Shown one piece after another: positions 4,049 to 34,066 of a DNA stretch of 64,000 nt. A program made the translations under genes and the position numbers. Below the pieces are notes generated by a model. That model searched no databases. It was given only the letters and a program-made list of their open reading frames with translations, and was not told the origin of the DNA. Position 1 is the first letter of the stretch. Every line of letters begins with the position of its first letter. The stretch is from assembly GCF_014193425.1 (NCBI RefSeq), contig NZ_JACHZG010000001.1, forward strand, positions 2,170,001 to 2,234,000. Direction: 5' to 3'. The DNA comes from Microlunatus antarcticus. GTDB lineage: Bacteria; Actinomycetota; Actinomycetes; Propionibacteriales; Propionibacteriaceae.

Positions 4049-4186
4049 GTCACGGACCGGGCGCCACCCCTCGACGGCGAGGCCAGCGAGATCTAGCAGG
4101 TCACAGGTGCGCGGCTGGCCGAGACCGTCGACGTAGACCACGCACGTCGAGACCGCCGACAAGTTCGCGGGCAGCACACCAGTCAT
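4049..4186 (-). pseudogene. tnsA N-terminal fragment, truncated by ISL3
   Basis: An ATG at 4186, preceded by GAGG at a ribosome-binding distance, opens 46 codons that end exactly where the ISL3 inverted repeat begins. The peptide (LPANLSA...VYV...RTCDLLDLAGLAVEG...PVRD) aligns without gaps worth noting to the start of the intact TnsA at 32634 (LPANMSA...VYV...RSCSVTELGSVEVE...PVRE). I infer it is the leftover N-terminus of the endonuclease subunit of a second, broken Tn7-like element, in the same orientation as the intact one. No trace of its tnsB, tnsC or tniQ is seen to the left. Confidence 0.65.
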
Positions 4187-4285
4187 CGCAGGACCTCGTC
4201 ACGGGCCGCGGCGCCTCGGCCAACATCCACAGTCGCACTACAACCCTGGACTGGCAACGCCTCCTGCCGGGCACTGCCTCCCGGA

Positions 4286-6267: not shown

Positions 6268-6350
6268 ACCTGCAGTATCGGCAGGAGCGCTGACAGATCG
6301 CGCCGGCCAGATCAATCCCCAAGGGCGTCACCTCGGAGTGGGCCGCGCTA

Positions 6351-6435
6351 CTGACAAGATCATTGCGAGAATGAGCCTGATCCGGACTACTGACAAGATC
6401 TTTGAGAAAACTGACAGCTTGTATGAGACAGGACA
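6351..6435. repeat. Tn7-like terminal repeats of the relic element (outward end at 6435)
   Basis: Three copies of a roughly 20-base site are present. They start with CTGACAAGAT at 6351, CTGACAAGAT at 6390 and CTGACAGCTT at 6411. The last runs through GAGACAGGACA to the terminus at 6435. Read from outside, the terminus is TGTCCTGTCTCATACAAGC, matching the ends at 6491 and 32840. These are interpreted as TnsB-binding sites. They point left, so the element they bound lies to the left. Confidence 0.72.
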
Positions 6436-6490
6436 CTCTCTCGCCGCGCCGCCGCCAAAAAAGTCAGCCCGGACCTCTACCGTGATTGGA
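6436..6490. other. 55-base spacer between two Tn7-like ends
   Basis: This short stretch separates the outward end of the relic element (6435) from the left terminus of the complete element (6491). It carries no gene and no site repeat. It may be what is left of the original target DNA between two adjacent insertions. It shows no similarity to the sequence right of 32840. Confidence 0.5.
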
Positions 6491-6615
6491 TGTCCGGTCT
6501 CAATCTTCATGTCAGCGGCTGCGCGCTCCGCGGACACCTCTTGTGAGACGAATTAGGCACGATCTGTCTCAAGGATCTTGTCAGCACCCGGACGCTGTCT
6601 CATCCAGGTTGTCAG
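6491..6615. repeat. Left-end terminal repeats of the Tn7-like transposon
   Basis: Three related sites are found at 6491-6515, 6565-6584 and 6596-6615. The second reads TGTCTCAAGGATCTTGTCAG and the third TGTCTCATCCAGGTTGTCAG. All are in the same orientation, pointing right into the element. They share TGTC at the outer side and TGTCAG at the inner side with the right-end sites in inverted orientation. They are interpreted as TnsB-binding sites, with the terminus at 6491. Confidence 0.72.
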
Positions 6616-6815
6616 CGACCGGACGCTCTCGGTTGCAACCTGGTGTGGTTGGCGCTCGGCGGCGAGGCGGCCGCCACTTTCTTCGCCGTAAGGGGACCGT
6701 GGTGCGGAGCACGCTGAACTACCGTCCTGCGAGACGGCGGAGGCCAACTTCCGGGGACGACCTCGGGTTGAGCGAGATGCTCGGAACTCTGACCTTGGCT
6801 GCTTGGCTGCTTGGC
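6616..6815. other. Spacer with two cargo-gap motif copies
   Basis: No gene is supported here. The stretch contains GACCGTGGTGCGGAGC at 6695-6710 and a weaker ACCGTCCTGCGAGAC at 6721, members of a motif that recurs between cargo genes across the element. Confidence 0.45.
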
Positions 6816-22235: not shown

Positions 22236-24788
22236 CTAGAGGCGGGGGTCGACGGGTTCGGACTCGAGGGCGAGGACGGCGAAGACGGGTTCGTAGACGC
22301 GCCAGAGGGGCTCGCGCTGCGCGGCGCGTTCGAGGGACTCGATGCCGAGGGCGTACTCGCGGCTGGCCAGCGAGCGTTTGTGGCCGAGGTTGCGGTCGCG
22401 GAGCCGTTCCAGGTTGGCGGGCTCGGTGTAGTCGGGGCCGTAGATGATGCGCAGGTATTCACGACCGCGGACCTTGATCCCGGGCTGGGCGTAGCCGCGC
22501 CCGGTAGCGACCAGGTTGGCGAAGGGCTTCACGACCATGCCCTCGCCGCCTGCGCCCGTGCGGTCCTCCCACCAAGTCACGGCGGCAGCGACCGAGGCAG
22601 GGTCGGTGGTGTCGACGAGGGTGCTCCGCGTGGGTCGGACGAGGGCCGGTGCAGCCGCGGCGAGGCGGTCGGCAAGGGCAAGGTGCCAGCCGTGGTCGTG
22701 ATCGGTCCAGGTCCGGCCCTCGGTCGCAAGCAGCTGGAACGGCGCCAGCTGGACGCCGTCCAGGCCGGAGGTGGGCCAGACGTAGCGGCGGTAGCTGTCG
22801 GTGAACGCCTCCGCGTTGCCGACTCGAGACACGGTCCGGGCCAGCAGTTCGGTGACATCGGTCCCGCGTGCGGCGACGGCCTCGAGCACACCGACCGCAG
22901 CGGGCAGCGCGGCGCGGGCGGCGGCGCCGACCGCGGCGTACTGGTGGCGGAGGAGCTCGTCGGCCTTGACCGACCAGGGCAGCAGCTCGGCGTCCAGCAG
23001 GAGCCAGTCGGTGTCGAGCTCGCCCCACAATCCGGTGTCGTCGACGGCTCGACGCAGCTGCTGCAGCAGCTGCTCGGTCTCGGCCGGCGCGAAGAACGGA
23101 CGCCCAGTACGGGTGTAGACAGCCCCAGACGCGCCGTCGCCGGCACCGAACCTCATCGCGGCGACCTCGGAGCTGCGGCAGAGCAGGACGACGGCGCGGG
23201 AGCCCATGTGCTTCTCCTCGCAGATCACCTGCTCGACTCCGGAGCGGCGGTAGTAGTCGAAGGCGGTGGTGGGGTGCTCGAGCAGGTCCCCGTCCGGGGT
23301 GGTGGCGGTGGGGGACATGGTCGGCGGGAGGTAGAGCAGCCAGCGCGGTTCGAGAGCGAAGCGGCTCATCACCTCCAGGGCGCCGGCGGCGTTCTCCTCG
23401 CGCACCGTGACGCGGCCGGCCAGGCGGGTGTCGACCCCGCGCTTGCCGAGGACGTCGGTGATGACCAGCTCGTCTGGTTCACGGGTGGCCGCCGGAGCGG
23501 CTGCCGGGTTGAGGAACGGTCTGGCCGGCTCGTACCAGACCTGCTGGGCCGGGACCGAGACGACCTCCTTCTCCGGATAGCGGAGCGCCGAGAGGTGGCC
23601 GCCGAACACGCACCCGGTGTCCAGGCACATCGTGTTGTTGACCCACTCGGGTGTCGGGGTCGGCGTGTGGCCGTAGAGGACCATCGTCTTGCCGCGGTAC
23701 TCGTCGGCCCACGGGTAGCGCACCGGCAGGCCGAACTCGTCGGTCTCCCCGGTGGTGTCGCCGTACAGGGCGAAGCTGCGGACCCGGGCCGAGGCGCGGC
23801 CGTGGTAAGCCTGCTTGAGCCCCGCGTGCGCGACGACCAGCCGGCCGCCGTCGAGGACCAGGTGCGAGACCAGGTCGTGGCAGAACTGCTCCACCTGCTC
23901 GCGAAACTCGGGCGGCTCGCCGGCCAGCTGTGCCAGCGTCGTCTCCAGCCCGTGGCTGACCTGCACGTCGCGGCCCTGCAGCGCACGCACGAGCTTGCTC
24001 TCGTGATTGCCGGGCACGCAGAGGGCGTGTCCGGCCGCGACCATGCCCATGACGAGCCGCAGCACACCTGGAGTGTCCGGGCCGCGGTCGACCAGGTCGC
24101 CGACGAACACCGCCTTGCGCTGCCCGGGCGGCTGGGCATCGACGGGCCGGCCCTGCTCGTCGCGGACCAGGTTGTAGCCGAGCTCGATGAGCAGGGACTC
24201 GAGCTCGGCCCGGCAGCCGTGCACGTCGCCGACGACGTCGAAAGGTCCCTGCTCGTGGCGGAAGTCGTTCAGGAGCCGCTCGCGGACGACGACCGCGTCG
24301 GTGACCTCCTGCTCGCTGCGCAGCACATGGACCTTGCGGAACCCCTCCTTCCCGAGCTGGCGAAGCGAGCGGCGGAGCTGGTCGCGCTGCCGCTTCACCA
24401 CCGAGTCCGGGTAGCTGCGTTCGGGACGGGAGGCGTTGCGGTCGAGGCAGACGCGTTCGGGCAGGTCGAGCACCACTGCCACCGGCAGCACGTCGTGGGC
24501 GCGAGCGAGGGCGACGAGCTGGCGGCGCGCCTCGGGCTGCACATTCGTCGCGTCGACCACCGTGAGGTGTCCGCCGTCGAGGCGGAGGCCGGCGACGTGG
24601 TGCAGAGCGTCGAAGGCGGCCGCGGTCGCCGACTGGTCGTTCTCATCGTTCGAGACCAGTCCTCGGAAGAAATCGCTGGAGAGGACCTCGAACGGGGCGA
24701 AGTGCTGCCGCGCGAACGTCGACTTCCCCGAACCGCTCGCCCCGACCAGGCAGACCAGCGACACCTCCGGCACCGCCAGCTCGCTCAC
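22236..24788 (-). CDS. pnkp: Polynucleotide kinase-phosphatase-ligase Pnkp (RNA repair)
   Basis: This 850-residue three-domain bacterial Pnkp heals and seals broken RNA. It has an N-terminal 5' kinase (Walker A VGASGSGKSTFAR, residues ~11-22) and a central metallophosphatase (VVGDVHGCRAE ~190, VGDLVDRGPDT, VPGNHES, VAHAG, LYGHT). The C-terminal ligase/adenylyltransferase domain has its nucleotide-binding Lys in CEEKHMGSRAVVLL near ~525. Length fits the family (about 850-870). It starts at GTG 24788, overlapping the hen1 stop (GTGA). With Hen1 it forms the known heterotetramer that repairs ribotoxin-cut tRNA and marks the junction by 2'-O-methylation. It is carried here as transposon cargo. 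Confidence 0.95.
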   Translation of the reverse strand: MSELAVPEVSLVCLVGASGSGKSTFARQHFAPFEVLSSDFFRGLVSNDENDQSATAAAFDALHHVAGLRLDGGHLTVVDATNVQPEARRQLVALARAHDVLPVAVVLDLPERVCLDRNASRPERSYPDSVVKRQRDQLRRSLRQLGKEGFRKVHVLRSEQEVTDAVVVRERLLNDFRHEQGPFDVVGDVHGCRAELESLLIELGYNLVRDEQGRPVDAQPPGQRKAVFVGDLVDRGPDTPGVLRLVMGMVAAGHALCVPGNHESKLVRALQGRDVQVSHGLETTLAQLAGEPPEFREQVEQFCHDLVSHLVLDGGRLVVAHAGLKQAYHGRASARVRSFALYGDTTGETDEFGLPVRYPWADEYRGKTMVLYGHTPTPTPEWVNNTMCLDTGCVFGGHLSALRYPEKEVVSVPAQQVWYEPARPFLNPAAAPAATREPDELVITDVLGKRGVDTRLAGRVTVREENAAGALEVMSRFALEPRWLLYLPPTMSPTATTPDGDLLEHPTTAFDYYRRSGVEQVICEEKHMGSRAVVLLCRSSEVAAMRFGAGDGASGAVYTRTGRPFFAPAETEQLLQQLRRAVDDTGLWGELDTDWLLLDAELLPWSVKADELLRHQYAAVGAAARAALPAAVGVLEAVAARGTDVTELLARTVSRVGNAEAFTDSYRRYVWPTSGLDGVQLAPFQLLATEGRTWTDHDHGWHLALADRLAAAAPALVRPTRSTLVDTTDPASVAAAVTWWEDRTGAGGEGMVVKPFANLVATGRGYAQPGIKVRGREYLRIIYGPDYTEPANLERLRDRNLGHKRSLASREYALGIESLERAAQREPLWRVYEPVFAVLALESEPVDPRL

Positions 24789-26200
24789 GCGGCCACCTTC
24801 CGGAACACGGCCAGCTGGGTCGGCGGGCCCACCTCGGGGTCGTCCTCGCCCACGGGCTCGAATCGGACGGTGTAGCCGTACGCCGTCGCGGTCGTGCCCG
24901 CCCACGTCTGGAACTCCTGGCGGGTCCACTCGAAGCGATGGTCGCGGTGCCGCATCTCGCCAGCCCTGAGGTTCGGGAAGCGCACGTTGTGCTCGACGTT
25001 AGGCGTGGTGACCAGCACCGACGTCGGTCGGGCGTGAGCGAAGACGCTCCGCTCCAGCGCGGGCAGCCGCGGCAGGTCGACGTGCTCGACGACCTCCATC
25101 AAGACCACGGCGTCATAGCCCGCAAGCCGGTCGTCGCGATACGTCGCCGAGGACTGCAGCAGCTCCAGGCGGGCGCGCTGGGAGTCGGGCATCCGGTCCG
25201 GGTGCAGCCTTCGGGTCGCGATCTCCAGCGCCCGGTGTGACACGTCAACCCCCGTCACCCGGGTGAACGCCGGGTCCGCGACCAGCGCGCGCAATAGCGC
25301 GCCCTCCCCGCAGCCCAGGTCGACCACGGTGGTCGCGCCCTCGGACCGCAGGGCTGCGACCACGGCCGCCTTGCGGAGCTGAGCCATCGAGGCCGGCCGT
25401 TCCGGGGCGCCGGGGTCGGAACCTTCGTCCAGCACCTCGGCCTCGGTCTCGTCGAGCTCGGCGAGCCGGCCGACCGCGTCCTGGACGAGCGTGTGGTGGT
25501 GGCCGAGGTAGCGGCTCGTGATCAGCTCGCGCTCGGGGTGGTCGGCGAGCCAATGACCTCCGGCCCGCATCAGCTTGTCGACCTCGTCGGTATTCACCCA
25601 GTAGTGCTTGGTGTCGTCCAGGACCGGCATCAGCACGTACAGCTGCGTCAACGCATCCGCGACCGTCAGCACACCGGCCAGGCGGAGGTCGACGTACGGC
25701 GAGACACCCCACGACGGCACCTGCTCGTCCAGCACGATCGCCGTCGTCGTCACCGACCACCCCAGCGGCGCGAACAGCCGCTCCACCAGGTCCGCGCCAC
25801 CTCGGGTCGGCAGAGCCGGCACGTGCACCTCGAGCGGGATCGCCCTGCCGGCCAGCTCGGGTCGTGCGTCGCACCGGCCGCTCATCGCGGTCCGGAACAC
25901 CTTGCCCAACGCCACCGACAGCATCGACGACGCCGCGTACGGCCGGTCGTTCACGTATTGCGACAACGAGAACCCCGTGTCACCCCGCCCACCCCGGCCG
26001 CGGACCAGCGCCACCGGGTCGACCTCCAGCAGGACCGCCACCGTGGCCCGCTCATCGCTGACCTCCGGCCAGATCACGTGCACGGTCCCGGACGCCACGT
26101 CGAACGACTGGGCCCGGTCCGGGTGCTTGTGCAGCAGGAACCCGAGGTCGGCAGGGACGGGCATCGACGTCGTCGCGGACGTCGACAGAGTCAGCAGCAC
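24785..26200 (-). CDS. hen1: 3'-terminal RNA ribose 2'-O-methyltransferase Hen1
   Basis: This 471-residue bacterial Hen1 has residues about 1-240 forming the N-terminal Hen1_L domain that activates Pnkp ligation (DLGFLLHKHPDRAQ...FSLSQYVNDRPYAASSMLSVAL). Residues about 285-471 are the methyltransferase, with SAM motif VVDLGCGEGALLRAL, the Mg/catalytic block LMEVVEHVDLPRL, and TTPNVEHN plus RHRDHRFEWTR carrying the metal-ligand His. It methylates the 2'-OH at the 3' end of damaged RNA before Pnkp seals it. First gene of the hen1-pnkp operon, coupled by a 4-base overlap. Confidence 0.95.
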   Translation of the reverse strand: MLLTLSTSATTSMPVPADLGFLLHKHPDRAQSFDVASGTVHVIWPEVSDERATVAVLLEVDPVALVRGRGGRGDTGFSLSQYVNDRPYAASSMLSVALGKVFRTAMSGRCDARPELAGRAIPLEVHVPALPTRGGADLVERLFAPLGWSVTTTAIVLDEQVPSWGVSPYVDLRLAGVLTVADALTQLYVLMPVLDDTKHYWVNTDEVDKLMRAGGHWLADHPERELITSRYLGHHHTLVQDAVGRLAELDETEAEVLDEGSDPGAPERPASMAQLRKAAVVAALRSEGATTVVDLGCGEGALLRALVADPAFTRVTGVDVSHRALEIATRRLHPDRMPDSQRARLELLQSSATYRDDRLAGYDAVVLMEVVEHVDLPRLPALERSVFAHARPTSVLVTTPNVEHNVRFPNLRAGEMRHRDHRFEWTRQEFQTWAGTTATAYGYTVRFEPVGEDDPEVGPPTQLAVFRKVAA

Positions 26201-26900: not shown

Positions 26901-27800
26901 ATGGTGCAGCGGCTCTTGGTGGGGGAGTGGTGGCTGCTGCGACTGCTCATTGACCCGACGACCGGGTCGATGGACCATCCGTTAGGCACGGTGCTTCACG
27001 TTGTCGCGGCATTGGATGGCCCGGGCAGGTGGAAGACCCAGCAGCTGCTGGAGCATCCCGACGTTCCGGACACGGTAGAGGACCCGGGGCTGCGGGCGCG
27101 GGTGGAGGCGTCGCGTGGTCGAGGCAGGCCGCCGCTGGTCCGGGTGATGGTGCTGCGTGGCCCGCTTCCCGAGCAGTCGCTTGAGCAGACGGTGCTGGAC
27201 TCGTGGGACGACCACGACCGCGGAACCGAGGGGGCGCTTGACTTGGCCGAGGGGTTACCCGAGGTTCCCACGGACGAGAGCGGCACGGGGCTGCTGGGGG
27301 AGTGGTCTGCCGACGACTATCTGCGGATCCGTGCCGCTGACCGGGTGGAGGTGCCGCTGGATGTGGCGTTGGTCGTGCTCCGGGTGTCGAATCCGGTGGG
27401 TCCGCGGGCCGGAGACGTCGAGCGGGGTGGGCTGACCGGTCTGGGCGTGCTGCCGGTCGAGATCAGTATGAGCATGGCTTCGTCGAGGACGGCGTACGCA
27501 CAGCTGGGATTGTTCGATCCCGCTCCGGCAGCGGTGGTCGTGGTGCGGAACCGCCCGTTGCACGGCCCGTTGCGGCAGGGGATGGTGGTGGAAGTGGGTC
27601 GTGCTCGTCAGTCCCTCGTGGGCGGGTCCCTGCGGGTCGTGGATGTTGCCGCTTCAGGTGATGATGACGAGGTGGCAGCGTTGCGCCGACGGCTGCTGTA
27701 CCGCGTGCTGGTCGAGCCGACGCGGGTTGCGGGTCAGGCTCCGTTCACGCTCTACCCGTCTCGGGTGGCTGACTACGACGGTTCACGGCACGCCGGCTAG
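26901..27800 (+). CDS. Unrecognised 299-residue protein adjacent to tniQ
   Basis: This soluble protein has no family I recognise. It has an N-terminal hydrophobic patch (LLVGEWWLLRLLIDP), a basic stretch (RVEASRGRGRPPLVRV), an acidic centre (LAEGLPEVPTDESG) and a beta-rich C-terminal half with repeated V-rich strands (VPLDVALVVLRVSNP, AAVVVVRNRPLHGPL, GGSLRVVDVAA). It is the second gene of the Xre unit and its end overlaps tniQ tail to tail by 18 bases, so it sits where target-selection or regulatory genes sit in Tn7-like elements. No signal peptide. Confidence 0.6.
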   Translation: MVQRLLVGEWWLLRLLIDPTTGSMDHPLGTVLHVVAALDGPGRWKTQQLLEHPDVPDTVEDPGLRARVEASRGRGRPPLVRVMVLRGPLPEQSLEQTVLDSWDDHDRGTEGALDLAEGLPEVPTDESGTGLLGEWSADDYLRIRAADRVEVPLDVALVVLRVSNPVGPRAGDVERGGLTGLGVLPVEISMSMASSRTAYAQLGLFDPAPAAVVVVRNRPLHGPLRQGMVVEVGRARQSLVGGSLRVVDVAASGDDDEVAALRRRLLYRVLVEPTRVAGQAPFTLYPSRVADYDGSRHAG

Positions 27801-28721
27801 CGCGAACGGGAGCGGCCTGCCTTCTGCGCTGCTGAGATCGCTGGTGAGTCGGTCGCTGAAGCGGTGGAGCCGCTGCCTGACTCGCCAGGTCTCCACCTGC
27901 TGCTCGGGGTCGTCGCCCTCGTCGTCGAGGTATGCGTAGCCCCCGCCGGGCAGGGCCCAGCGGATCTGGACGCGGGCCAGCTGGTCGCGCGAGGGCTCCC
28001 AGCAGATGTGGGGTAGGCGGGACAGCTCGTCGGCGACGCGGTTGATCGTGGCGTCGCGCACGGTTGACGTGTCGGTCAGGCCGGCCCGGACCGCGGGGTC
28101 GATGAGCGCCTGCGCCCAGCGGATCTGTACGGCGTATTGGGCCGCCCTCAGGTAGTGCCTGGACAGCTCAGTTGTCGAGGAGTCGGCGACCTGGCTTGAC
28201 CCGGGCCGGATGAGGTGCGCGAGCTCGAGGGCGAACAGCATCAGGGGACTGTCGACGAGCACCCCGCGCGGAGCGAGCTCGCGCCGGAAGGTGCGTTCGG
28301 CGGCGACGACGAGGGCCTGCACCGGTGCCCGGTCGTCGTCATCGACGTGGCCGGCGATGTGACGGGGCGGGTAGTCGGTCCACCACTGGTGGGTCAGGCA
28401 GCACCAGCCGCGCTGCGGGAGCCGACCGGTCGCCGGGTGGCCCTGCGTGCAGCGCAGGCACAGGTCGCGACTGGTGACCCAGACCCCGCCGGTCTGCACA
28501 GGCGTGGTGAACGCCACGGGGTGCAGGCTGCCGAGCTGGCGCCACCGGGTGAGGCGTTCGGGGTCGTGGTGGGCGTGGCTGTGCAGCAGGTCGCGGTTGA
28601 ACAGGGCCCGCTCGACGGCGTGGACGGTGGTGTGGTTCCGCGAGCAGTGTCGGGTGGCCCAGCTCGTCAGGTCCTCGCCGGCGTAGCAGCGCGTCGGTAC
28701 CGGCAGCGGCGCCAACTTCAC
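27783..28721 (-). CDS. tniQ: TniQ-family target-selection protein
   Basis: This 312-residue protein belongs to the TniQ/TnsD family that recruits the transposase complex to a target. The N-terminal region (LAPLPVPTRCYAGEDLTSWATRHC...NRDLLHSH) and the zinc-binding block (LCLRCTQGHP...GWCCLTHQWW, residues ~88-112) are diagnostic. It is shorter than the roughly 500-residue TnsD of Tn7. It starts at GTG 28721, overlapping the tnsC stop (GTGA). The same frame is open back to 29771, but that part is the shadow of tnsC. Last gene of the tns operon. Confidence 0.85.
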   Translation of the reverse strand: MKLAPLPVPTRCYAGEDLTSWATRHCSRNHTTVHAVERALFNRDLLHSHAHHDPERLTRWRQLGSLHPVAFTTPVQTGGVWVTSRDLCLRCTQGHPATGRLPQRGWCCLTHQWWTDYPPRHIAGHVDDDDRAPVQALVVAAERTFRRELAPRGVLVDSPLMLFALELAHLIRPGSSQVADSSTTELSRHYLRAAQYAVQIRWAQALIDPAVRAGLTDTSTVRDATINRVADELSRLPHICWEPSRDQLARVQIRWALPGGGYAYLDDEGDDPEQQVETWRVRQRLHRFSDRLTSDLSSAEGRPLPFALAGVP

Positions 28722-29806
28722 CCTCCGCTCCCTCCTCCCGCACCGCTCGCACGACCCGATCCGCGGCGCCGGGCCACCGACGCGGGCAGGGCAGCGGCGT
28801 CGCGGGCGGTGCGGAGGTCGTCGGCCTGCCGGTCGGTCGGGGTGGCGTCGAGCAGGTTCCGGGTGACTCGTTCGGTGTGGGTGAGGATCGCTTCGGTTGC
28901 GGCGTCGGCGAGCAGGGCACGCAGGGTGCCCAACGAGCCACCGGTCCGGTCGAACAGGTACCCGGCGTGGGCCGTGAGGCTCCGGGCGGGGTGGCGGGTG
29001 AGGACGAGCAGGTCCTCGCAGGAGGCGACGAGGTCGACCCAGACGCCCTGCTGGGTGCGGGTGGCGAACGTGTAGGGCAGCATCTGGTGGACCACGATCC
29101 GGCCGGTGATTTGGCGGGAGAACTCGCCGGTGAACAGCTCCGAGCGGGGCAGGTCGATGCCGGCGTAGACGAACGTGGCGTCGAGGCGTTCGGCGAACAG
29201 CTTCAACGCGGTCGCGGCTTCGGCGCCGACTTGGCGGTTGGTCCGTAGGTTGTGGATCTCGTCGACGATCACCATCGACGTGCGCAGCGCGGTCATGGTG
29301 TCGATCGCGGCGTCGGTGAGGAACTGGGTCGTGGCGTGCGTGGTCCACGGCAGATCCAGCCCCTGGCAGATGGCGTGCATCAACATTTTCGGCGTCGCCG
29401 CCGCCGGCACCACCACGTACACGACCGGGTGCAGTGCGTCGTCGCGTCCGTGTGGGTGTGCGGGTTGGCGGGCCCGGACGGCGCGGTCGTGGCGCCGGCC
29501 CAGGTGCAGCACCGCGGTGCTCTTGCCGAGCGTCGACGCCCCCGACAGCGCGATCGCCCGGCGGGCGGTGACTGAGTCGACCCGGTTGCGGACCGTCGCC
29601 ACTCGCACCATCCGGGTCAACGCCTTGACGTCGTCGGTGTCGAACACCACGTCGGCCGACAGCCACGCCAACCGCTGCGCGTCGTAGGCCAACTGGGCAG
29701 CGCTCGGCAGCGCCTGCCGCGCGGCCGCGGACAACCTGACTGGTGGGACCGGGTCCGGCCGGTTGGCCCACGCCTGCCAGGCCTGCAGCGTGACCGGTAC
29801 CGCCAC
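28718..29806 (-). CDS. tnsC: Transposition regulator ATPase TnsC
   Basis: This 362-residue AAA+ ATPase has Walker A ALSGASTLGKSTAVLHLG (~residue 88) and Walker B MVIVDEIHNLRTNR (~178), followed by FVYAGIDLPRSELF (sensor) and the SRQITGRIVVHQML segment typical of TnsC/TniB proteins. It links the target complex (TniQ) to the transposase. The C-terminus is Gly/Ser/Arg-rich and flexible. The gene starts 3 bases after the tnsB stop and overlaps tniQ, so the operon is fully coupled. Confidence 0.9.
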   Translation of the reverse strand: MAVPVTLQAWQAWANRPDPVPPVRLSAAARQALPSAAQLAYDAQRLAWLSADVVFDTDDVKALTRMVRVATVRNRVDSVTARRAIALSGASTLGKSTAVLHLGRRHDRAVRARQPAHPHGRDDALHPVVYVVVPAAATPKMLMHAICQGLDLPWTTHATTQFLTDAAIDTMTALRTSMVIVDEIHNLRTNRQVGAEAATALKLFAERLDATFVYAGIDLPRSELFTGEFSRQITGRIVVHQMLPYTFATRTQQGVWVDLVASCEDLLVLTRHPARSLTAHAGYLFDRTGGSLGTLRALLADAATEAILTHTERVTRNLLDATPTDRQADDLRTARDAAALPASVARRRGSGRASGAGGGSGG

Positions 29807-29809
29807 GAT

Positions 29810-31888
29810 TCAGACCCAGCCGTCGTCGGGAGGCTCGTTGTAGAGGAACCGCTTTAGCGGCTGCGGCTCCGGCAGTGGCTCACCAGCCAGCTTCTGCTCG
29901 GGCTGGTCTTCGGCAACGTCGGAGGCGTCGACGACGACGCGCAGATACGCCCGCTCCGCAGACGGTTCAGGTTGGGGGAGTGCCGCTGGTAGTTGCTGGG
30001 TGCTGCCGCGGCGTCGGGCGGCGCGTTCGACCCGGTTCTCCGCGGTCACGCTCGTCTGGATTCGGTTGATCTCGTTTAGCAGGGCTGCGGCGCTCGCGGC
30101 GGGCCGCTCGGCACGACGGGCGACGGCGGCCTGAGCGGCGCGGAGGACGTCGATGCCGAACGGAGCCAGGGTCTGCGCTTGCAACGTCCACCCCACCTCG
30201 ACCCAGCAGCCGGCTTCGTGGTTGCGCAGGTAGACCCGGTTCATCCGGTACGGGTCGTAGCGGACCTCCCACTTGTCGCACGCCTCCGGCGAGCGGATCC
30301 CGCTGCGCACGTTGCGGAACGGCCCGAGGGCGGGGGAGTCGTAGGTCAGGCCGGAGAAGTTGATGCCGTAGCGCTGCACCGTGCGCCACACCCGCGGCAG
30401 CAGCGCGATGTAGTCGTCGGTGTCGAACACCACCGCCACACCGGGCGCGACAGCCGAGAGGGCTTCGAGCATCTCGTTCGGCGTGAGGTGCTGCTGCGGG
30501 ACCGCGAGCAGCCGCAGCCCGGAGTGGGGCCGGTTCTGCCAGCACTGGACGATCCACTGGTCAAGCAGGTCCTGGACCTGCGCCAACGGCCACAAGGCCT
30601 CCGCCGCGACGTCTGCTCCGCGGCACACGACGTTGGGGCCGGTGTAGCCGGTCAGGTACTGGATAAACAAGGTGTTGATCGAGCGAAACATCCGCTCGAC
30701 GTGCGGCTTGTCCGTCGGCGTGCGCGGCGCGGCCTTGACAAGCGAGATCTGCAGTCGTTCGCACGCAGCCAGGAACGTGCTCGACACGAACACCCGCCCG
30801 CGGTCGATCGTCACCGACTCGATCGACACCACCGGCCGCTCCCGCAGCTGCTCGGCCAGCACCTCCGGCTCTTCGAGAGCCCCTTCTGGCAGCAGGCTGC
30901 GACTGAACCGGACCGCGTCCGCCCACCCCGGCTGCACCAGCGGCGGCGTCATCGCTCGCGCCAGCATCAGCGCCGCGTCGACCGCCTTCGCCGCCACCGG
31001 ACTCAGCACCGCGGCCAGAAGCGTCCGCGTCGCTATGTCTAAGACGATCGTCAGGTCGACGCGGCCTGAGCCGCCGTCGGGATAGAGCACCAGCACGTCC
31101 AGCGGGGTGCTGTCGATCTCCACCAGCTGGCCCGGGCGGGACGGCACCTGGTGGCCGTAGGCGCGGTCTGGCCGGTTGGCCTGAGTGCGCCGCGTCGTCG
31201 CGTTCCCGAACGAATGCCGCTGCCGGTCCAACCTGTTCACCAGCCGGTACAGGGTGCGGGACGACGGCAGGGTCAGGTTCTCTGCGGCCGCCTCGACCTC
31301 GATCTGCGCAAGCGCCCGGGCTCTGGTGCCGGTCGACAAGATCTTCTGATGGGCCAGTACGTCCTCAACGACAGCAACGACCCGCGGGTCGACGCGGCCG
31401 GTCACCGTGGCAGTGCGGACAGTCCTCGGATCGAGCAGGCCCGCGACGCCATCGATGCGGTAGTGAGCGATGCACCGCCACAGCGACCTGGGCGATAGGT
31501 CAATTCCTATGGTTGACAACTCGGTCGACTTCGCCTCGACCCGTTGGCGGAGGGTGTGCTGGTGGTCGTACTCGGGCCGCGCCCGGGTACCACTCGGGCA
31601 GTCAGGCGGGAGCCCGGTCAGTACCTCGTGCACGTGCCTCTGCAAGAACAACGCCTGCGCACGAGCAGCCGCGGGCGCGGTGTCGAAGGCGCTCACCCGC
31701 AACAGCGGAACTCGATTCGCCTCCAGGGGACCGTCCTCCGGGCACGTCAGCAGAGCAGCGACGGTTGCGGTCCGCGGCCGAAGCCCGTCGAGCGAGCGGA
31801 GGGCGACCGCACCTGCATCGAGGGCCACTACCTGCCAGCGCGAGCCTTCGAACTGAACGGTCTCCCATAGGGCGACACCGACCTTCAT
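29810..31888 (-). CDS. tnsB: Transposase TnsB (DDE, Mu/Tn7 type)
   Basis: This 692-residue transposase has N-terminal HTH regions (SPRSLWRCIAHYRIDGVAGLL; LPSSRTLYRLVNRL). The rve integrase core has its triad in LVEIDSTPLDVLV (~258), ESVTIDRGRVFVSS (~360) and DKPHVERMFRSINTLF (~398). A Mu-transposase C-terminal domain (VRYDPYRMNRVYLR) and a proline/glutamate-rich tail, likely the TnsC contact, follow. I chose ATG 31888 (MKVGVALWE), which overlaps the tnsA stop (ATGA). It cuts the 3' ends and joins them to target DNA by binding the terminal repeats at 6491-6615 and 32742-32840. Confidence 0.93.
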   Translation of the reverse strand: MKVGVALWETVQFEGSRWQVVALDAGAVALRSLDGLRPRTATVAALLTCPEDGPLEANRVPLLRVSAFDTAPAAARAQALFLQRHVHEVLTGLPPDCPSGTRARPEYDHQHTLRQRVEAKSTELSTIGIDLSPRSLWRCIAHYRIDGVAGLLDPRTVRTATVTGRVDPRVVAVVEDVLAHQKILSTGTRARALAQIEVEAAAENLTLPSSRTLYRLVNRLDRQRHSFGNATTRRTQANRPDRAYGHQVPSRPGQLVEIDSTPLDVLVLYPDGGSGRVDLTIVLDIATRTLLAAVLSPVAAKAVDAALMLARAMTPPLVQPGWADAVRFSRSLLPEGALEEPEVLAEQLRERPVVSIESVTIDRGRVFVSSTFLAACERLQISLVKAAPRTPTDKPHVERMFRSINTLFIQYLTGYTGPNVVCRGADVAAEALWPLAQVQDLLDQWIVQCWQNRPHSGLRLLAVPQQHLTPNEMLEALSAVAPGVAVVFDTDDYIALLPRVWRTVQRYGINFSGLTYDSPALGPFRNVRSGIRSPEACDKWEVRYDPYRMNRVYLRNHEAGCWVEVGWTLQAQTLAPFGIDVLRAAQAAVARRAERPAASAAALLNEINRIQTSVTAENRVERAARRRGSTQQLPAALPQPEPSAERAYLRVVVDASDVAEDQPEQKLAGEPLPEPQPLKRFLYNEPPDDGWV

Positions 31889-32634
31889 CGCCACACCGGG
31901 GTCGACGGCCGTAGGGCTGCCCCGAGGTCTGCGTGCAGCTCGTGGCGCCACAGCAGGTGGTAGCAACCGGCCAACACTGTCGCCAGGGGACGAGAGCAGG
32001 ACCGGCTGAGTTCGTCGGCCCCGTCGCGTAGTTCCTGGCCACCAGCGAACACCATCGACGCCGCCGCCGAAAAGCTTGAGCCCAGCGTGAAGCGGTCCTG
32101 CCGGTATCCAGCAAGGAACTCAAGGTTCGACCGGACCGTGGCGCCCAAGCCGGTGAAGACCTGGTAAGCCCAGCCGAGCTCGGCGCAGGTTCGCCGGGTC
32201 TGCTCGAACTGTCTCGCCGCACGAGTGTCAACAAGCTCCGCCGGCCTCACGTCGACAACGCCACCGCCGCCGCCCTGGAGGCGCACGAAAAGGTCAGGGA
32301 CGTGGTGTTGGCCAGCTGCCGACCCGCGCGGCCACAACAGAGCGAAGGGCTGCACCGCCAACCCCACGGCCCTCGGCTCAAAGTCCCACGCCATCAACGC
32401 CTGCCGTTCGAGAAGACTCTCAAAGGCCAGCAATGTCCCCGTGGTCCTCGACCACCACCAGCCCTGGAACGACCGCTGGCCGGGCCAGGCGAAGAACTCG
32501 CGCACAGGAGCACAGCGCTCCACCTCGACACTGCCGAGCTCGGTCACAGAGCACGACCGCAACTCAGCGTCACTGCCGACGTAGACCGCTCGCGCTGTCT
32601 CCGCGGACATGTTCGCGGGCAGGGCACGAACCAT
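31885..32634 (-). CDS. tnsA: TnsA-like heteromeric transposase endonuclease subunit
   Basis: This 249-residue protein has a TnsA-type restriction-endonuclease fold: GTLLAFESLLERQALMAWDF with the catalytic Glu (~73), HHVPDLFVRLQ with the Asp (~113), then GVVDVRPAELVD (~126). In the last motif the Lys of E. coli TnsA is replaced by Arg. It would cut the 5' strands so the element moves by cut-and-paste rather than cointegration. I chose ATG 32634 (MVRALPANMSA); the upstream in-frame GTG at 32715 adds unrelated residues. The start is shared in style with the fragment at 4186. First gene of the operon, just inside the right end. Confidence 0.82.
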   Translation of the reverse strand: MVRALPANMSAETARAVYVGSDAELRSCSVTELGSVEVERCAPVREFFAWPGQRSFQGWWWSRTTGTLLAFESLLERQALMAWDFEPRAVGLAVQPFALLWPRGSAAGQHHVPDLFVRLQGGGGGVVDVRPAELVDTRAARQFEQTRRTCAELGWAYQVFTGLGATVRSNLEFLAGYRQDRFTLGSSFSAAASMVFAGGQELRDGADELSRSCSRPLATVLAGCYHLLWRHELHADLGAALRPSTPVWR

Positions 32635-32741
32635 GGCGACACCCTCGTCCAGACCGTGACTCACGGTCACAACGAGCGTCGCACCGTACCGCCCTCGTGA
32701 CAACGAGCAGCCCACCCGCAGGTCACATCGTGGTCAAGGTG

Positions 32742-32840
32742 TTGACAAGGTCCTGCTGACAAGACGGATGTCAAACAGGGCCTGGTTCCGGACGCTGACA
32801 AGTTGGATGGCAAGAATGACAAGTTGGATGGCACAGGACA
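32742..32840. repeat. Right-end terminal repeats of the Tn7-like transposon
   Basis: Four closely packed sites are present, beginning with TTGACAAGG (32742), CTGACAAGACGGATG (32756), CTGACAAGTTGGATGGC (32795) and ATGACAAGTTGGATGGC (32816). The last runs through ACAGGACA to the terminus at 32840. All point left into the element. The dense four-site pattern matches the Tn7 right end and lies about 100 bases upstream of tnsA, so TnsB binding may also repress the tns promoter. Confidence 0.78.
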
Positions 32841-32930
32841 CCTCCAGCAGGAACTGCTTCGCCTCCGCGTCTGTGCATTGTCATAATGCTGCTTATCGGA
32901 CAGCCACCCAGATGCTCGCGAGAGTGGGGT

Positions 32931-33143
32931 CTAGAGCCGCCGCTCATGATCAGGATGCGGCACCTCATGCACGACCAGGCCGTCCATGCCGCGGAAATCG
33001 TCCGGGTTGCAGGTGTGGGATGGAACTGGCTCGGCCTGCTGCAGCACCGCCTGCCGCAAAGCCCGGTCGGCGGTGGCGACGAGTGTCCCACTGGACAGCT
33101 CGGCCAAGGTGATGGTGCTGATTAGCGGCTCACCGGGTGTCAT
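32931..33143 (-). pseudogene. vapC-like PIN toxin remnant
   Basis: The frame retains short pieces of a VapC toxin in order: GEPLISTITLAELSSG (middle helix), LRQAVLQQAE, and a C-terminal CNPDDFRGMDGLVV. The N-terminal Asp motif and most of the catalytic core are gone through in-frame deletions. Its ATG still overlaps the antitoxin stop (ATGA at 33140-33143). Non-functional as an RNase. It is the nearest gene to the right transposon end, 91 bases away. Confidence 0.65.
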
Positions 33144-33394
33144 AATGTCTGGTCGACCGCTTCATCGATGTCCCGAAGAAGTCGATCCGGGTCTACGGGT
33201 GGCACGGCACGCCAGCGCCGCAGCACCTCGGCTCCGGTCAGTCCGCGGTGCCCACGAGGATGCAGCTCGGCGACCTCAGCTCCGTCGCGAGTCACCACCA
33301 CGACTTCACCGCGCGCAACTCTGTCAAGCACCGATCCCGCATCGTTGCGCAGCTCACGCACGCTCACCGTGTCCACGTACACACAGTGATCCAC
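33140..33394 (-). CDS. Phd/YefM-type antitoxin
   Basis: This 84-residue antitoxin has the Phd_YefM DNA-binding fold: VSVRELRNDAGSVLDRVARGEVVVVTRDGAEVAEL, then a C-terminal toxin-binding tail (LTGAEVLRRWRAVPPVDPDRLLRDIDEAVDQTL). It would repress its own promoter and neutralise VapC. The frame opens at 33394, but the true start is probably the GTG of VSVREL at about 33367. It looks intact while its partner toxin is decayed. Confidence 0.78.
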   Translation of the reverse strand: MDHCVYVDTVSVRELRNDAGSVLDRVARGEVVVVTRDGAEVAELHPRGHRGLTGAEVLRRWRAVPPVDPDRLLRDIDEAVDQTL

Positions 33395-33418: not shown

Positions 33419-34006
33419 TCAGGACGACGCCCGACCCGAGCGGTGCGGCGCCCCGTCGCGGATCTGCGTCGGCCGCTTGATCAGGTGATCGTGACCGAGC
33501 TCCCAGGTCCGCTGCCACTCGCGCTCGTCGATGGTCGCCTTGCGTCGCTCGACCCGTCCGAGGTCCGCCGCGACGAAGTCGGCGATCACGGGGTGGAAGT
33601 TCGACCACGGCCCCGAGGCGTACGGGCCCGGCACGATGTCGCGGGCGGTCGGGCTCCCCCGGTGGTACGTGTTCACGGTCAGGCGCCGGGTGCCGACCTG
33701 GACGTAGCTGTCGGTGGGCCGCCGATCGAAGCGCAGGATCACCACCGCGTCGAAGTCCGAGCTGTACGCGGCGACCAGCAACGGCTGCAGGTTCATCACG
33801 ACGGCCGCTCGGCTGTCGCCGTTCCACAGGTGCGCGTCCAGGATCTTGCGCGCGATCAGACGGGTCGGCAGCACCGAACCGACGCCGAAGAGCGACGGGG
33901 ACAGCTGACGCAGCCGCTGGGGATCGATCGTCACTCCCCCGGGGTCGGAGGCCAGGGCTTCGTTGCTCATGAAGGGGGTGTCGCGCGGCTGCACCGGTTC
34001 GCTCAT
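33419..34006 (-). CDS. Hypothetical protein
   Basis: A soluble protein of about 195 residues from ATG 34006 (MSEPVQPRD). The body (QRLRQLSPSLFGVGSVLPTRLIARKILDAHL...AAVVMNLQPLLVAAYSSDFDAVVILRF) has mixed alpha/beta character, and the end is basic and unstructured. No family was recognised. It is the first gene outside the mobile region that seems fully intact, 60 bases downstream of the RND exporter gene on the same strand. Confidence 0.55.
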   Translation of the reverse strand: MSEPVQPRDTPFMSNEALASDPGGVTIDPQRLRQLSPSLFGVGSVLPTRLIARKILDAHLWNGDSRAAVVMNLQPLLVAAYSSDFDAVVILRFDRRPTDSYVQVGTRRLTVNTYHRGSPTARDIVPGPYASGPWSNFHPVIADFVAADLGRVERRKATIDEREWQRTWELGHDHLIKRPTQIRDGAPHRSGRASS

Positions 34007-34066
34007 GCCCTCATTCTCCGACCCCACGGAGCCCGCTCGGAGGGTTTTCCCCAGGCCAGCTCACGA

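Follow-up and report, generated by a model that had tools for sequence, protein, structure and literature searches.

The locus described here raises the question of how a Tn7-like transposon with a single, short target adaptor finds the place at which it inserts. The window, a 64,000-nucleotide stretch of the Microlunatus antarcticus genome (contig NZ_JACHZG010000001.1), contains an intact tnsA-tnsB-tnsC-tniQ operon, all four genes on the minus strand, just inside a Tn7-type right end. The original prediction, made from the letters of the window alone, had described a complete operon of this kind at a Tn7-like right end in a high-GC genome, which the coordinates and family matches bear out, and had left target choice open, which does not stand: the right end is found at a near-fixed distance from dif, both here and in relatives. 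dif is a short DNA site used by bacteria to separate joined chromosomes. The features seen in the sequence are the ends, the target duplications, the near-fixed distance to dif, the orientation with the right end proximal to dif, and a dif site that is left intact. They are very probably those of a cut-and-paste transposon with TnsABC and TniQ, belonging to an actinobacterial Tn7-like branch and homing to dif via its single TniQ.

Insertions beside dif

The right ends of the window element and of an element in the sister species (genomes G000 and G003, respectively) face an identical 25-mer, TGTCATAATGCTGCTTATCGGACAG. The reverse complement of this 25-mer has the layout of a dif site, an 11-bp arm, 6 bp, and a second 11-bp arm, and its arms agree, by eye, at 16 of 22 positions with the dif suggested for Frankia alni, as quoted in an excerpt of PMC3025954. 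As of that excerpt, no actinobacterial dif had been experimentally confirmed. Of 20 genomes in the genus, 10 have the 25-mer once each at up to three mismatches, and the other 10 lack it. An exact copy of the shorter dif core, CCGATAA-N6-TTATGNCA, was found in 228 genomes out of 245 related ones (a single copy in 216 and more than one in 12), the remaining 17 having none, and a reversed-core control gave 0 in all 245. In 800 kb of sampled chromosome, one core is present at up to two mismatches and three at up to three. Homing to a core that is exact and usually single in so many genomes would let a transposon insert without necessarily disrupting a gene.

The survey of relatives comprised 39 loci, 24 with a TnsB identity of at least 39% and 15 with at most 33%. 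In seven of the 24 closer loci (the window, G073, G069, G178, G311, G282, and pJ349-116), an exact core lies close upstream of tnsA; in G123, it is an additional 2.9 kb away, next to the right end. The sister species has, at the same locus as the window, an 11.86-kb element with similar ends and the duplication CTCGC, which adjoins a homologue of the window open reading frame (ORF) 33419-34027 (66% identity) and in which no tns genes were found. Insertions at dif thus total nine: the window, seven relatives, one of them on the Arthrobacter plasmid pJ349-116, and the tns-less element of G003.

Judged from sequence, the spacing of these independent insertions to dif is nearly fixed, as expected of dif targeting. 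From the dif centre to the right end, the distance is 49 bp in the window, 48 bp in G003, 50 bp in G073, 48 bp in G069, 49 bp in G311, 50 bp in pJ349-116, 52 bp in G123, 64 bp in G282, and 65 bp in G178. Six of these distances fall at 48-50 bp, a seventh is 52 bp, and the remaining two are 64-65 bp. The right end is the dif-proximal end in all nine, and the insertion lies 37-54 bp past the dif core, eight of the nine insertions being on the side of XerD. The inverted orientation of dif in pJ349-116 leaves the distance from the dif centre unchanged. Exact 5-bp duplications are present in six of the nine (G000, G003, pJ349-116, G178, G282, and G123), and close elements of 4,826 bp in pJ349-116, 7,015 bp in G178, 6,799 bp in G282, and 7,757 bp in G123; with random 5-mers, a comparable far end was obtained in 2 of 1200 trials. 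A far-end candidate in G311 was rejected, with only 8 of 24 bases matching, and no far end of the G069 element was found within the sequence stretch searched. The flanking sequence varies among the insertions, and the constant neighbour is dif. The haloacid dehalogenase fragment that the window element splits was considered as the target and rejected, as the G003 element at the same dif has other flanks and another duplication. In pJ349-116, a natural element of 4.8 kb, the tnsA, tnsB, tnsC, and tniQ frames are all open.

In a TnsB tree of 26 author-chosen rows, a clade with a support of 100/100 unites the window with G073, G069, pJ349-116, and G093. All four testable members of this clade are at dif; the contig of G093 ends before tnsA. 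The sister clade is a mixture of elements at dif, elements adjacent to mobF, elements adjacent to recombinase genes, and Tn7706 elements. The tree omits G311, whose TnsB has two stops, L182 and L189, whose genes are split, three more Tn7706 loci, and several of the distant loci. By these sequence comparisons, dif homing appears as a property of the window's clade and of some sister lineages, and not of the whole branch.

The operon and the 119-kb element

The four genes are tightly coupled, as had been predicted: coordinates and sequence give an ATGA overlap between tnsA and tnsB, a 3-base gap between tnsB and tnsC, and a GTGA overlap between tnsC and tniQ. The features of the locus are collected in Table 1.

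Table 1. Positions in the window of the operon, its target site, and other transposon features
Feature	Position	Strand	Remarks
tniQ, short (312 aa) target adaptor gene	27783..28721	-	CCCH residues; family profile
tnsC, AAA+ ATPase gene	28718..29806	-	PF05621 TniB, E 7.1e-16; Walker A/B motifs
tnsB, DDE transposase gene	29810..31888	-	Mu-transpos_C; solved TnsAB/TnsB chains
tnsA-like endonuclease gene	31885..32715	-	NF033179 match, alignment with 10 relatives; exact start uncertain
Transposon right end	32743..32840		TnsB-type repeats (three full, one partial); GGACA at the terminus
Target duplication CCTCC	32841..32845		Same 5 bp precede the left end (contig position 2083555, beyond the window)
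Chromosomal dif, predicted	32876..32903	-	CTGTCCGATAA GCAGCA TTATGACAATG; only exact dif core in the genome
Possible 47-aa TnsA N-terminal remnant (weak)	4049..4189	-	40% identity, E 1e-4, 160-kb search
Second Tn7-like right end, RE_2	6338..6435		Inside the 119-kb element
27-bp sequence S	6463..6489		Confined, in this genome, to the left side of three internal left ends
Tn7-like left end, LE_G	6491..6632		Inside the 119-kb element

TnsA matches the NCBI family NF033179 (TnsA_like_Actin) with 216.5 bits against a cut-off of 110, and the presence of its gene indicates the cut-and-paste nuclease of Tn7-like transposons. The arginine that had been noted in place of the usual lysine is present, but it is not unusual: in an alignment of the window TnsA with 10 relatives, from which the TnsA of L192 was left out, this position is arginine in 9 of 11 proteins and lysine in two. 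Arginine is therefore the norm in the family and no sign of an altered active site. TnsB matches Mu-transpos_C (Pfam) and solved TnsAB/TnsB chains (best E 7.7e-11); two Asp motifs are present, the third DDE residue was placed by eye, and the window tnsB is the sole TnsB match in the genome at an E-value of 0.001 or better. TnsC, recognized through its Pfam family, has no match in the PDB at E 0.01. The match of TniQ alone to Pfam is weak (E 0.19, below the cut-off), and the protein is thus recognized through its homologues: PF06527 is matched by seven of nine aligned members, including the window TniQ (E up to 1; best 2.1e-10), the family profile matches solved TniQ chains at E 0.004-0.008, and the zinc-finger CCCH residues C88, C91, C108, and H111 are invariant in all nine. 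The eight aligned relatives have lengths of 290-366 aa, annotated TniQ proteins at other loci reach 389 aa, and pJ349-116 has an open frame of ~258 aa; the 312-residue protein of the window is short and single, as predicted.

No second target selector was seen among the proteins scanned. In agreement with the prediction that CRISPR, Cas, and TnsE-like components are lacking, a simple detector found no CRISPR-like repeat run across 160 kb, and none of 20 further window proteins matched a Cas or TnsE family in Pfam, proteins left of the window lying outside that profile scan. Within that scope, the CRISPR array or Cas effector that marks a CRISPR-associated transposon is absent. Searches of viral contigs for relatives of TniQ and TnsB, and of genome contigs with TnsB, confirmed none. 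As cargo, Pnkp-type and Hen1-type RNA-repair genes (window 22236-26200) adjoin the operon.

Four packed repeats had been predicted at the right end. Three full copies are found (32757-32773, 32796-32812, and 32817-32833), whereas the fourth is only a partial copy near 32743, seen by eye. At up to three mismatches, the repeat motif has four matches in the window, of which three are these repeats and for which 0.16 is expected by chance. The TGT...ACA ends with arrays of putative TnsB sites are a Tn7-like feature. Clusters of repeats in left-end orientation were found outside the window by a whole-genome search with the repeat motif, and the element reaches beyond the window: it extends from the left end at position 2083555 of contig C1 to window position 32840, a length of 119,286 bp. 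When the flanks are joined, one reading frame of a haloacid dehalogenase fragment is restored. Residues 11-12 of the resulting peptide mark the junction, which is crossed by the alignments to G003 (52% identity), G018, and G140, starting at residue 3 or 4; several others start at residues 11-16. A chance 5-base match with seven left ends in the region has a probability of roughly 7 in 1024, and the restored frame is the stronger evidence for the left end than the CCTCC match. Tn7-like elements of up to 140 kb are reported in the available text of Benler et al. (PMC8649781), and by that maximum 119 kb is large but not unheard of.

The 119-kb element holds a stack of other Tn7-like ends without a second tnsB. 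Genome-wide, models of the ends detect nine left ends on one strand, eight of them full (E 3.8e-24 or better) and one partial (E 8.5e-7), and three right ends (E 1.4e-23 or better); the models were built from these very sequences, and the result lies in there being no further full copies and not in the scores. Seven of the full left ends, counting the element's own, are inside the 119 kb. A lone left end of the same family is located far from the element, at C1 1463428, with no full right end nearby. Each of three internal left ends has sequence S immediately to its left (window 6463-6489 and C1 2135983 and 2142815), at variable distances from the neighbouring right ends; no other copy was found in the genome at up to three mismatches, nor a convincing match in other genomes, viral contigs, or plasmids. 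An 8.9-kb cargo block (C1 2127059-2135957) carries CrcB-like and stress-protein genes, named by eye, and shares 91% identity with cargo in the tns-less element of G003 (L112).

Recognition of dif and rival explanations

In the proposed mechanism, TnsA and TnsB would cut the element out and join it to the target, TnsC would bridge TnsA and TnsB to the target, and the single short TniQ would pick the target. Insertion would put the right end ~49 bp from the dif centre, leaving dif intact and making the 5-bp duplication. TniQ may read dif through bound host XerC/XerD rather than by touching the dif DNA. This reading is favoured because TniQ is of core size, the TniQ core comprising ~300 aa in passages of PMC10293859; because the distance to the dif centre is kept in either orientation of dif; because hunters of res sites are reported to sense bound resolvase; and because TnsF, a partner of TniQ, has the fold of a tyrosine recombinase. 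A TniQ encoded near relaxase or recombinase genes would do likewise with other bound recombination proteins. Extended tentatively to the whole branch, a proposal that is rather less than probable, short core-only TniQ proteins would read bound host or plasmid proteins: XerC/XerD at dif, and MobF relaxase at oriT or recombinases at res in sister lineages. If so, the chooser would be one that the branch borrows from its host, and each new TniQ protein might point to a new bound site.

Alternatively, TniQ may bind the dif DNA itself, without XerC/XerD, as TnsD of Tn7 binds its attachment site. Direct binding, a possible but somewhat doubtful explanation, would account for dif being constant where the flanks differ, and passages of PMC10293859 describe direct binders and partner-dependent TniQ proteins as hard to separate by size alone, which also weighs on the XerC/XerD reading. 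On the other hand, the window TniQ is near core size (relatives 258-366 aa), whereas in dual loci one protein is usually >400 aa, which suggests direct selection (PMC10293859, same passages). The unchanged centre distance at the inverted plasmid dif fits a two-sided complex, with the proviso that the dif DNA is itself partly symmetrical. Integration by XerC/XerD, as with Xer-exploiting mobile elements, would explain the position at dif, but is scarcely credible: each end of the element would have to carry an Xer core, and the junctions, none of them less than 34 bp from the edge of the 28-bp dif, already contradict it. dif is not duplicated, with one exact core each in G000 and G003, and the TGT...ACA ends with 5-bp duplications in six of nine loci also speak against it. 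Accessory DNA often collects near the terminus, and the nearness to dif could be due to chance in a region that tolerates insertions; the 48-50 bp spacing at six loci and the constant right-end-proximal orientation at nine, a plasmid among them, make an absence of targeting very improbable. As for the extent of the element, the operon's own element could run only from LE_G to 32840 (26.35 kb), the outer 119-kb frame deriving from other elements. LE_G is the nearest correctly oriented left end, but it is preceded by TTGGA instead of CCTCC and looks, by eye, like another end subtype. The outer left end has CCTCC and a flank that restores the haloacid dehalogenase frame, and the shorter element is unlikely.

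Several observations weigh against homing to dif through the single TniQ. Among the 24 loci with TnsB identity of at least 39%, the core is absent within the scanned stretch in 17, including G123, whose core is farther out, and L018, whose contig ends before tnsA. The others are four Tn7706 loci, five beside mobF, two beside a gene for a recombinase family protein, one unannotated, one beside another TnsA/TnsB pair, a Streptomyces locus near a linear-plasmid end, and L182 (Arthrobacter Hiyo8), which is close by TnsB and TniQ and has broken genes and no core at up to four mismatches. None of the 15 loci with TnsB identity of at most 33% has a core at up to two mismatches in the 3.6-5.1 kb examined for each, short stretches from which a farther dif could escape; one of them has no TnsA match and another only ~160 bases before its TnsA match. 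GC skew in 20 samples from each of two genomes did not confirm the location of the terminus, and an AlphaFold model of TniQ from one sequence had a mean pLDDT of 35 and was not used.

Comparison with known systems and sites other than dif

By every defining feature tested (TnsA, DDE TnsB, TnsC, the TniQ family, the ends, and the 5-bp duplication), the element is classed from its sequence as Tn7-like. In Tn7, TnsD homing combines TnsABC with a selector of the TniQ family and places the right end beside an attachment site that is left intact. The window element differs in that its target is dif and not the end of a gene, and in that its selector is of core size. Elements of the Tn5053 family, which are not known to carry TnsA, resemble it in aiming a single TniQ at a recombination site; their target, unlike that of the window element, is the res site of Tn3-family resolvases and not dif. 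Sensing of bound resolvase by such res-site hunters is reported in a title cited in PMC11406308. Tn6022, in passages of PMC10293859, has a short TniQ with a partner, TnsF, of tyrosine-recombinase fold; TnsF is borne by the element, whereas the window element would use host XerC/XerD.

The ISAjo2 group of the IS1202 family, as described in excerpts of PMC10132070, shares with the window element a TnsB-like transposase, TGT...ACA ends, a 5-bp duplication, and dif targets, both chromosomal and on plasmids. Its members are 1.5-kb insertion sequences without TnsA, TnsC, or TniQ that insert 5 bp from the XerC site; in place of the single transposase that defines the family, the window has an operon of four genes. 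The IS1202-family dif hunters and the Tn5053 res hunters are the nearest precedents. No report of a Tn7-like transposon at dif was found, judging by title and opening of the abstract among the papers listed, in the open-access literature searched, with subscription papers and preprints largely outside it; the available text of PMC8649781 makes no mention of dif, XerC, or XerD, that of PMC11406308 none of a dif site or XerC, and passages of PMC10293859 mention XerH and no dif site. Relative to that literature, dif is a target class not found described for Tn7-like elements, and target choice by such elements would extend to the site of chromosome dimer resolution. With a dif-homing system, recognition of a bound recombinase by a short TniQ could also be tested directly. 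An Actinobacteria-dominated TnsB clade without an experimentally characterised member is described in part of the text of Benler et al. 2021; membership of the window element in that clade is not implied.

Tn7706 of Rhodococcus, in excerpts of PMC12915292, is similar to the window element in its gene order (tnsA-tnsB-tniB-tniQ), its 290-aa TniQ, and its TGTCC right end. It also has cargo with fluoride-transporter and phosphatase genes and a 5-bp duplication in two of four copies with both flanks read (ACCAC and TTCGG). Unlike the window element, its TnsB being 39% identical over 681 aa, it has no exact dif core nearby and occupies other plasmid sites. Its right end is found at three positions within ~30 bp of one target region (L075, L078, and L083, on Rhodococcus plasmids), and the duplication is seen for the L075 copy and not for L078.

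Further observations concern other sites and the dif neighbourhood. At the plasmid loci L183, L185, L187, L188, and L191, the right end lies before a gene annotated as a mobF relaxase, probably in the oriT region; L183, L185, and L188 have a common GTGCANNAGGTNTGA, 42-49 bp from the end by eye. L184 and L189, on Streptomyces plasmids, are near a gene annotated as a recombinase family protein, and targeting of a res site would fit this location. Of 24 Streptomyces rows listed, 15 are no farther than ~12.3 kb from the end of a record. Two loci are on linear plasmids: L073, with TnsABC but no annotated TniQ, and L184, with a TniQ. Seven exact dif cores are present in the 1.6-Mb genome G103, always in reverse-strand orientation on their contigs; perhaps these cores are dif modules. 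Just beyond dif in the window, 32931-33394 holds a PhdYefM antitoxin-like gene, followed by a short ORF that matches nothing in Pfam.

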